Source: Chloroflexota bacterium (GTDB taxonomy: Bacteria; Chloroflexota; Ktedonobacteria; Ktedonobacterales; Ktedonobacteraceae). Taken from it: DNA of 64,000 nucleotides. Below are positions 11,808 to 32,803 of this stretch, one piece after another. Every line of letters begins with the position of its first letter. Within the stretch, counting starts at the first letter, position 1. The notes beneath the pieces are model-generated. The model was not told where the DNA came from and made no database searches. It saw only the letters and a program-made list of their open reading frames with translations. The translations under genes were made by a program, and so were the position numbers. The stretch spans positions 1-64,000 of the forward strand of contig CADDZH010000002.1 in assembly GCA_902812455.1 (NCBI GenBank), read 5' to 3'.

Positions 11808-12431
11808 TTATTCCTGTTCTCCCTTGCCACCGCTCTTTTCTTCCTCGATGACCCGCTCGACGACCTGCTTCAGTACCTGGTAGGGCTGCGCACCCATGAC
11901 CAGGTAACGATTGGCAAAGATGAGTGCGGGGACGCCGCTCAGCCCATAGGCATACGCCATCTCTTCGTCGGCATCCACCTGCTCATTGAAGGCCTCGCTG
12001 GCCAGGATCTGCTCGAAATCCTTCGTATTGAGGCCGGCCTCCTCGGCGACTGCTCGCAAGACAGCCGTGTCGCCGATATCCTTGCCTTGTTCCCAGTAGG
12101 CACGCATGGCGGTGACGTGAAAGGCAGCCCCCTTGCCCTGCGTCTGGGCGTACTTCTCAAGCACCAGGGCCGGCCGGCTATTGGCGCCAACCGGGCCAGG
12201 ATTCATCTCCAGGCCATATTGCTCGCGCGCCCGTTGCTGCAACAGTGGCCGTCCTGCCATAATCCGCGCCTGGCGTTCCGGCGTGATGGGAGGAGCACCG
12301 GCAGGATGCAATTCAAACGCATGCCACTGGATGGTGACATCATAGTGTTCTTCAAGCTGCTCCAAACTGGAGCCGACCAGGTAGCAAAACGGTCAAACAA
12401 AGTCAGACCAGACATCAATGCGGACGGACAT
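11808..12431 (-). CDS. FrnE/DsbA-family oxidoreductase, probable selenoprotein (UGA at residue 13)
   Basis: A 207-residue thioredoxin-fold protein of the FrnE branch of the DsbA family. Read from the ATG at 12431, which has AGGAAGGA eight bases upstream, it begins MSVRIDVWSDFV, then an in-frame TGA (12393-12395), then PFCYLVG. Family members have Cys at this place (CPFC), so the TGA replaces the nucleophilic redox cysteine and the protein would be U-P-F-C. The frame after the TGA is intact for 194 codons, with the helical insert and cis-proline loop (SGVPALIF). A tRNA-Sec gene is in this window and a stem-loop follows the TGA. The start overlaps the end of the radical SAM gene by 17 bases. 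Alternatives are a fresh nonsense mutation or a sequencing error, but the exact position argues for selenocysteine. Confidence 0.88.
12359..12395 (-). promoter_or_regulatory. Candidate bacterial SECIS element following the in-frame UGA
   Basis: On the minus strand the TGA (12395-12393) is followed by seven bases and then a stem-loop. The lower stem is GCUAC with GGAGC (one A-G mismatch), there is a UUU bulge on the 3' side, and the upper stem is CUGG with CCAG closing a six-base loop UCGGCU. The apical loop starts 17 bases after the UGA and contains G residues, in the range known for bacterial SECIS hairpins. It was folded by eye only. Confidence 0.6.
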
Positions 12432-13404
12432 AGATATGTTCCTTCCTAGTGAAAGCACCAGGGCGATGGCCAGCGTCGCCCCTACCTTCGATCGCAGCCG
12501 GCAGGAGGGTAGGGGCTGGGCTTGCCCCAGCCCTGGAACTCAAGGCGCGAGGCGCGATCCCGCAAAAGCCTGCGCTACTCCAACCAACTGCAAGCCCCTT
12601 TGGTTGCCCACACTCGCACAGATAATCATAGAGCCGGTGAGCACGAGCCGTCTCGTCCCACCCCGGCTCAACTCCGGCGAATGGGCTGCGGCCAGTGCGT
12701 CCACCTCCCGAACCGTCACCATCAACAACCGTATCGACAACCACTCGCTGCGCCCCGCTCTCGAGTAGCCGTTGGCCAAACTCCTCAACGGCAGTATAGG
12801 GAAGACATGGGCTGGCGGTAATCTGGGTATGAATACCGGCGCTACTGGCGGCTCGCACTAGCTCCCAGCGTTTCTCTAACGGCGGCCCACCCTTAAGGCT
12901 TTTCAGGTATGACTGATCGTCAGTCTCGATCGTTATTGAGAGCCAGGCATAAGGGATCTGGGCCAATAATGGCAGGTCGCGCTCCGCCAGCGGGGAGCGG
13001 GTCTGCACAACCAGTAAATCCAGCTCTGGATAGCGGGTGAACACTTCCAGGCATTGTCGCGTGACCTGGTACTTGCGCTCGATTGGCTGGTAGGGATCGG
13101 TTGTGCTGCTCATAAAAATGCGCAGCTTACAGCGTGTTTCTGGCTTCATCCTCGCCAGGGCTTTGTCCAGCAGTTCGGCGGCGTTTACCTTGACCTGCAC
13201 TGCCTTTCCCCAGGAAAGCGCTCCTCCCCTGAAGGACCAGTTGGGCAGAAACTGGGCATAGCAATACATGCCACAGGTCGTCTGCCCAAAGCCACAGCCT
13301 GTATACGGCGACAGCGCGTGTGTGAACGGATACGGGCCGCTAGCCAGGAAGCCACTGGTTTGCGGTGTCAAAATGCTCTTCGCTTCTTGCAACACGATTT
13401 CCAT
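12415..13404 (-). CDS. SPL-family radical SAM protein (Rv2578c-like)
   Basis: About 329 residues. After the start at 13404 (MEIVLQEAKSILT) comes YTGCGFGQTTCGMYCYAQF, the cysteine cluster expected to hold the radical SAM [4Fe-4S] centre; the spacing is C-x6-C-x3-C rather than the usual C-x3-C-x2-C. Later motifs (FMSSTTDPYQPIE, VVQTRSPL, LSITIETDD) are typical of the spore-photoproduct-lyase-like group of unknown substrate. An upstream in-frame start at 13686 would translate a 15-bp hairpin and non-coding DNA, so I reject it. The last 40 or so residues are encoded by GC-rich intergenic repeats and overlap the ribosome site and start of the selenoprotein gene, indicating an operon. Confidence 0.83.
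   Translation of the reverse strand: MEIVLQEAKSILTPQTSGFLASGPYPFTHALSPYTGCGFGQTTCGMYCYAQFLPNWSFRGGALSWGKAVQVKVNAAELLDKALARMKPETRCKLRIFMSSTTDPYQPIERKYQVTRQCLEVFTRYPELDLLVVQTRSPLAERDLPLLAQIPYAWLSITIETDDQSYLKSLKGGPPLEKRWELVRAASSAGIHTQITASPCLPYTAVEEFGQRLLESGAQRVVVDTVVDGDGSGGGRTGRSPFAGVEPGWDETARAHRLYDYLCECGQPKGLAVGWSSAGFCGIAPRALSSRAGASPAPTLLPAAIEGRGDAGHRPGAFTRKEHIYVRPH
12459..12541. repeat. GC-rich hairpin repeats (family C) inside the 3' end of the radical SAM gene
   Basis: Two palindromic units lie close together: GGGCGATGGCCAGCGTCGCC (12459-12478) and GGGGCTGGGCTTGCCCCAGC (12512-12531), separated by CTACC- and GTAGG-type junctions. Similar units lie at 25108-25195 and 30427-30453. They are translated as the tail of the radical SAM protein. 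Confidence 0.65.
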
Positions 13405-32704: not shown

Positions 32705-32803
32705 GGAGGTGTAGGGGCCCCGGCGGGTCTCACCGTCTTCAAAACGGCTGGGGGGTCGCTCGGCGCGGCCCCTGGTGGGTTCGACTCCCATACGCCTCTG
32801 CCA
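32705..32803 (+). tRNA. selC: tRNA-Sec (anticodon UCA)
   Basis: A 99-nt selenocysteine tRNA. The acceptor stem is eight bp (GGAGGTGT with ACGCCTCT), the D stem has six bp around a four-base loop (GGGCCC-CGGC-GGGTCT), and the anticodon loop is CTTCAAA with anticodon TCA at 32739-32741. The long variable arm has an eight-bp stem (GGGGTCGC with GCGGCCCC), the T arm is GTGGG-TTCGACT-CCCAT, and the 3' end is GCCA with the CCA encoded. The 8+5 acceptor/T architecture, long D stem and UCA anticodon are diagnostic and exclude tRNA-Ser or a suppressor. It would deliver Sec to UGA codons such as the one in the gene at 11808-12431. Confidence 0.95.

Follow-up and report, generated by a model that had tools for sequence, protein, structure and literature searches.

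What is a stop codon doing at the catalytic position of a redox protein gene? The question is raised by a locus on the minus strand (11808..12431) of a 64,000-nucleotide stretch of DNA from a Chloroflexota bacterium (contig CADDZH010000002.1; hereafter the window), where an FrnE-like gene of the DsbA family contains a single in-frame TGA. The codon coincides with the first cysteine of the active site, and it is very likely decoded as selenocysteine (Sec), which would give the protein a Sec-Pro-Phe-Cys redox site. A sequence-only reading of this DNA had proposed that the gene encodes a DsbA- or FrnE-type selenoprotein whose first redox cysteine is replaced by Sec. This proposal is supported by the exchange of UGA and cysteine codons among relatives, by a reading frame that stays open, by a covarying hairpin, and by the occurrence of selA, selB, and selD in all six close relatives.

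The layout of the gene agrees with what that reading had described. An ATG (12431-12429) is preceded, 9 nucleotides (nt) to its 5' side, by a Shine-Dalgarno-like AGGAAGG (12441..12447, minus strand, as are all parts of the gene given here), and is followed by 12 sense codons, the TGA (12393..12395), 194 sense codons, and a TAA (11810-11808). When the TGA is read through, the product has 207 residues and the active-site motif U13-P-F-C16, in which codon 16, a TGC (12384..12386), encodes the sole other cysteine of the protein and the predicted resolving partner of the UxxC pair. Residues 5-190 match the Pfam family DSBA (PF01323; E 4.5e-39), and the best fold match of the predicted structure model is FrnE. 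The first cysteine of the CPWC site in FrnE of Deinococcus radiodurans aligns with residue 13, which bears out the earlier placement of the TGA on the first cysteine of a CxxC motif. In a mechanical list of open reading frames (ORFs), the gene begins at a TTG (12363..12365) and encodes 185 amino acids. The active site is thereby lost, as had been foreseen for gene callers, together with the first strand, which the structure model places at residues 3-9, right at the start of the protein. Changes in the stretch 5' of the TGA are mostly silent. Among seven close sequences (the window and six relatives from its class), 69 silent versus 28 non-silent changes fall in the 10 codons 5' of the TGA, and 192 silent versus 194 non-silent changes fall in the 30 codons 3' of it, all counts being sums over sequence pairs that are not independent. 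From such codon comparisons, the codons 5' of the TGA are evidently translated and under purifying selection.

The same codon recurs in relatives at various distances. A scan of a genome collection returned two loci, one in Ktedonosporobacter rubrisoli (L001, genome G001; 56% identity) and one in a Chloroflexi metagenome-assembled genome (L002; 35% identity), each with TGA at this position. In the class of K. rubrisoli, 32 of 47 genomes contain a match at E<=0.001. All six close orthologs (53-61% identity; genomes G001, G021, G022, G023, G044, and G045) carry TGA at codon 13, and the other matches are distant (25-37% identity), with a stop-free CPWC in each of the 24 whose motif was printed. 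One very weak match (G018; E 3.3e-6) also contains a TGA. Only G044 among the six Sec-form genomes has a second, distant stop-free homolog at the same threshold, and most other class matches are such distant homologs; one form may replace the other in the genomes of this class.

In a survey of 400 genomes drawn from the Chloroflexota, 65 contained a match at E<=1e-25. Opposite residue 13, 56 of these have TGA and nine have TGC or TGT. Close kin are favored both by the E-value threshold and by a query of the Sec type, and the fractions should not be taken to hold for FrnE-like proteins in general. With the window added, and with L002 dropped as a duplicate of L080, the set comprises 66 sequences, 57 with TGA and nine with a cysteine codon, which is the exchange that would be expected among relatives of a genuine selenoprotein gene. 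The frame 3' of this codon is open until the C-terminal stop in all 66, so the random stops that had been named as evidence against Sec are lacking there. Several of the cysteine orthologs (L067-L070, L072, and L073, all from Chloroflexota) are full length at 44-45% identity, with CPFC in register. The TGA is more than a chance occurrence, because the frame read through it matches the DSBA family and because it recurs at the aligned codon in 56 of 65 genomes.

A candidate signal for Sec insertion follows the UGA. The hairpin GCUCCA-GUU-UGGAGC (12359..12373, minus strand) has a stem of 6 base pairs (bp) and a 3-nt loop that begins 25 nt past the UGA (-13.7 kcal/mol). It overlaps the TTG start of the ORF list and is predicted to be a bacterial Sec insertion sequence (SECIS) element. 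When each sequence was searched for its best hairpin having a G among the first two loop nucleotides, with synonymous-codon shuffles as controls, the 57 Sec forms reach a mean score of 17.3 versus 9.7 for their shuffles, and the hairpin attains p<0.05 in 30 of them versus 2% of 342 control windows from the same genes. The nine cysteine forms score 3.3 on average versus 6.4 for shuffles, and seven of them have no hairpin. Plain folding energy relative to synonymous shuffles gives a weak signal, with a mean z of -1.06 in the Sec forms and +0.55 in the cysteine forms.

The loop starts 19-22 nt past the UGA in 48 Sec forms and 25 nt past it in nine, namely the window, the six relatives from its class, L071, and L078. 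Covariation was counted on ungapped alignments separately for these two registers. In the 48-sequence group (45 distinct), 92.7% of cells are paired and 31 cells are changed on both sides. None of 500 shuffles reaches its covariation score, which also stands well above those of slid structures, but both-side changes occur in only two of seven pairs, a number not above that of the shuffles. The group of nine is 100% paired, with one pair present as C-G, U-A, and G-C and three of five pairs invariant; its covariation score is reached by one of 500 shuffles.

Components for decoding UGA as Sec are also at hand. The window holds a tRNA-Sec gene (32705..32803, plus strand; anticodon UCA), as had been reported from the sequence and is now confirmed by ARAGORN and by a score of 62.5 bits against Rfam RF01852 (gathering score 47). 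It lies 20 kb from the Sec gene and is the sole tRNA gene found in the window. Its sequence shares 97% identity with the tRNA-Sec of K. rubrisoli and 91-97% with those of the top 27 of 40 class genomes with a match. Together with the protein matches, the closeness to K. rubrisoli makes that class the most likely home of the window. All six close UGA-bearing class genomes encode selA, selB, and selD over curated cut-offs, and five have a tRNA-Sec over the cut-off; the genome from which the window comes would presumably carry the three sel genes as well. Of the 400 genomes of the phylum sample, 321 contain selA at E<=1e-60 (320 over the cut-off), and it is present in 54 of the 56 UGA genomes versus 267 of the 344 others (p 0.0004). 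In the Ktedonobacter class, 41 of 47 genomes have a selA match above the cut-off, which indicates that Sec is commonly used there. Machinery loss does not explain the cysteine forms, because eight of the nine genomes that carry them keep selA (the exception is G318). Six genomes (G086, G078, G145, G117, G294, and G138) have selA, yet carry a cysteine form without the hairpin. A separate observation concerns selD, whose product is itself a known selenoprotein (PMC13188914, Table 1): in the class of K. rubrisoli many selD matches contain one in-frame TGA and others contain none, which suggests that Sec- and Cys-type SelD coexist.

Some observations weigh against Sec decoding at this locus or limit what can be claimed for it. 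Taken alone, the window hairpin reaches p 0.063, and plain folding energy past its UGA is not significant (z -1.00 with synonymous shuffles, z -0.77 with dinucleotide shuffles). The hairpin is significant in one cysteine form, L102 (p 0.003). A published rule for bacterial SECIS elements (a loop of 3-9 nt that has a G among its first two nucleotides, an upper stem of at least 4 bp, 16-37 nt past the UGA, and a minimum free energy of at most -7.5; PMC13188914) describes the window and 56 of the 57 Sec forms, but it is unspecific, in that it also fits two of the nine cysteine forms and, elsewhere in these genes, 505 of 684 sites. Stems of at least 6 bp occur in 49 of the 57 Sec forms versus 132 of the 684 other sites, and the covariation observed in the alignments is stronger support for a SECIS element than the published rule. 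A tRNA-Sec over the cut-off is lacking in G045, and two UGA genomes, G132 and G239, have no selA match; incomplete assemblies are the likely reason in all three cases. Finally, the predicted enzymatic role is drawn from fold and family.

Several other explanations would account for the TGA. A single base change makes TGA from TGC or TGT, and cysteine is found in nine of the 66 sequences compared, so a chance nonsense mutation in a pseudogene, or a sequencing error, might leave no full-length protein at all. This is vanishingly improbable given that TGA sits at exactly codon 13 in 56 independent genomes, that the remaining 194 codons are intact, and that selection on the codons before the TGA and covariation in the hairpin after it are both evident. 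It is also very improbable that a suppressor tRNA or an altered genetic code has the UGA read as tryptophan or cysteine. At this site, the database proteins P0031 and P0051 do have tryptophan (WPFC), as a caller using UGA=Trp would give, and they are probably Sec genes mistranslated in that manner. However, TGA ends 12 of the 41 ORFs picked in the window (the others end in TAA, 19, or TAG, 10) and is thus an ordinary stop there, the only tRNA gene found is the one for Sec, selA, selB, and selD accompany the gene in all six close kin, and a SECIS-like hairpin follows the UGA.

A short product translated from the TTG at 12365, lacking the active site and leaving the upstream ATG as a decoy or regulator, would agree with most database annotations, in which 83 of the best 120 of 544 matches start at query residues 14-30. 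Such starts are gene-caller choices, however, and the conserved first codons with their mostly silent changes, the full N-terminus of the cysteine relatives, and the Shine-Dalgarno-like site at the ATG leave this option with very little credibility. Somewhat less remote, although still unlikely, is a selenoprotein that does not act on disulfides and is instead a glutathione-linked isomerase or transferase resembling HCCA isomerase or kappa GST.

If the UGA is decoded as Sec in a disulfide enzyme, a path from gene to catalysis can be outlined. SelD would make selenophosphate, from which SelA would supply selenium to charge the tRNA-Sec of the window, and SelB, attached to the hairpin directly after the UGA, would deliver the charged tRNA to the ribosome. 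The protein might then serve as a cytoplasmic thiol-disulfide reductase or isomerase, a role modeled on FrnE biochemistry (PMC8945050, section 2.4). The selenolate of residue 13 would attack a substrate disulfide, and Cys16 would resolve the mixed selenide-sulfide. With no further cysteine and no C-terminal CxxxxC, the enzyme would have to be recharged by a reductant from elsewhere, for example thioredoxin or a small thiol.

The assignment to a FrnE/DsbA type needs one refinement. The DSBA match and the fold and alignment match to FrnE uphold it, and the FrnE subfamily site, CP(W/F)C, appears in register in the window as UPFC, with UGA as the first cysteine codon. A tree was built from 81 rows, namely the 66 genome sequences, 10 listed database proteins that retain the active site, and five of the 24 printed canonical FrnE loci. 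A branch with 100/100 support and a length of 2.76 separates the Sec sequences from these five in this midpoint-rooted tree, and the Sec clade is for this reason named FrnE-like, apart from canonical FrnE in the tree. A C-terminal CxxxxC is found in none of the 57 Sec forms. It occurs in many FrnE members but not all (PMC8945050), and as an optional feature its lack does not exclude the FrnE subfamily (COG2761 / cd03024).

The tree calls for nine changes of the Sec label and seven of the Cys label, at least four of each being forced by well-supported branches; the two tryptophan rows are set apart and raise the count of Sec changes. The cysteine form L102 is nested in supported Sec clades (100/100 and 97/86) and is best read as a Sec-to-Cys change. 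Past its TGC codon (genome G284) the hairpin is partly shifted yet significant, possibly a SECIS remnant left by a recent change. With a midpoint root, the direction of change elsewhere is uncertain, as is the position of the window beside the cysteine proteins P0083 and P0108 (82/75).

DsbA-like selenoproteins with a UxxC site are already known as a kind, and the window gene is a new member. Nine such sequences, assigned to COG2761, were predicted from the Sargasso Sea in 2005 (PMC1088965), and COG2761 is also the group listed for D. radiodurans frnE (PMC1978522). A "DsbA-like protein form 1" (PF01323, UxxC) appears in Table 1 of a 2026 catalog (PMC13188914), and two DsbA-like UxxC selenoproteins have been described from Asgard archaea (PMC11227280). 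Compared by description, the Sargasso Sea and form 1 proteins share PF01323, the UxxC position, and a bacterial SECIS with the window gene, and the passages that treat them name no Chloroflexota member. FrnE of D. radiodurans (DR_0659; 5cnw, 5cp1) differs in that the window has a Sec codon for the first cysteine, and in that the Sec forms lack the CxxxxC tail and occupy a separate branch. Another thioredoxin-fold UxxC family, the DsbG-like Rcas_1661 family (seleno)lipoproteins (NF041057; PMC13188914, Table 1), was considered and rejected, since only residues 121-193 match, at 31 bits versus a cut-off of 190. The cysteine orthologs listed above have CPFC in the same place, but carry TGC or TGT for TGA and have no hairpin by the search used, though their genomes contain selA. 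In the open-license PMC literature searched, neither the FrnE-like Sec family nor its wide spread in Chloroflexota is described, which is no proof that they are unpublished.

The balance tips slightly toward a broader picture, in which small FrnE-like disulfide enzymes form a Chloroflexota-wide clade that relies mainly on Sec, has exchanged Sec and cysteine several times, and uses a UGA hairpin in two registers (loop at 19-22 or 25 nt). Most database entries are cut at the UGA, and a phylum-wide selenium-dependent disulfide system would thus be largely unannotated. Among the best 120 of the 544 database proteins found, 110 begin past the active site, eight have cysteine there, and two have tryptophan. 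The 110 include the window's own shortened product (P0002), and some of them may be cut by contig ends. The catalytic residue is therefore invisible to ordinary annotation, and the enzyme seems to be without a redox center. With 57 Sec and nine cysteine versions and two hairpin registers, the clade offers a compact natural system for studying how and why bacteria swap these residues.

The surroundings of the gene provide no functional hint, because a comparison of 18 window ORFs with seven loci, five of them only 3.6 kb long, gave besides the Sec gene a single weak match, to an HtrA-like protein in L002 (28% identity). Counting the one at codon 13, 15 TGA sites in the window have a UxxC or CxxU motif and are followed by 60 or more codons; the 14 besides it appeared to be in wrong frames. 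Directly upstream of the Sec gene lies a radical-SAM ORF (PF04055; 12415-13686, minus strand), which extends far beyond the domain matched in it and shares with the Sec gene the initial 17 bases of the latter.
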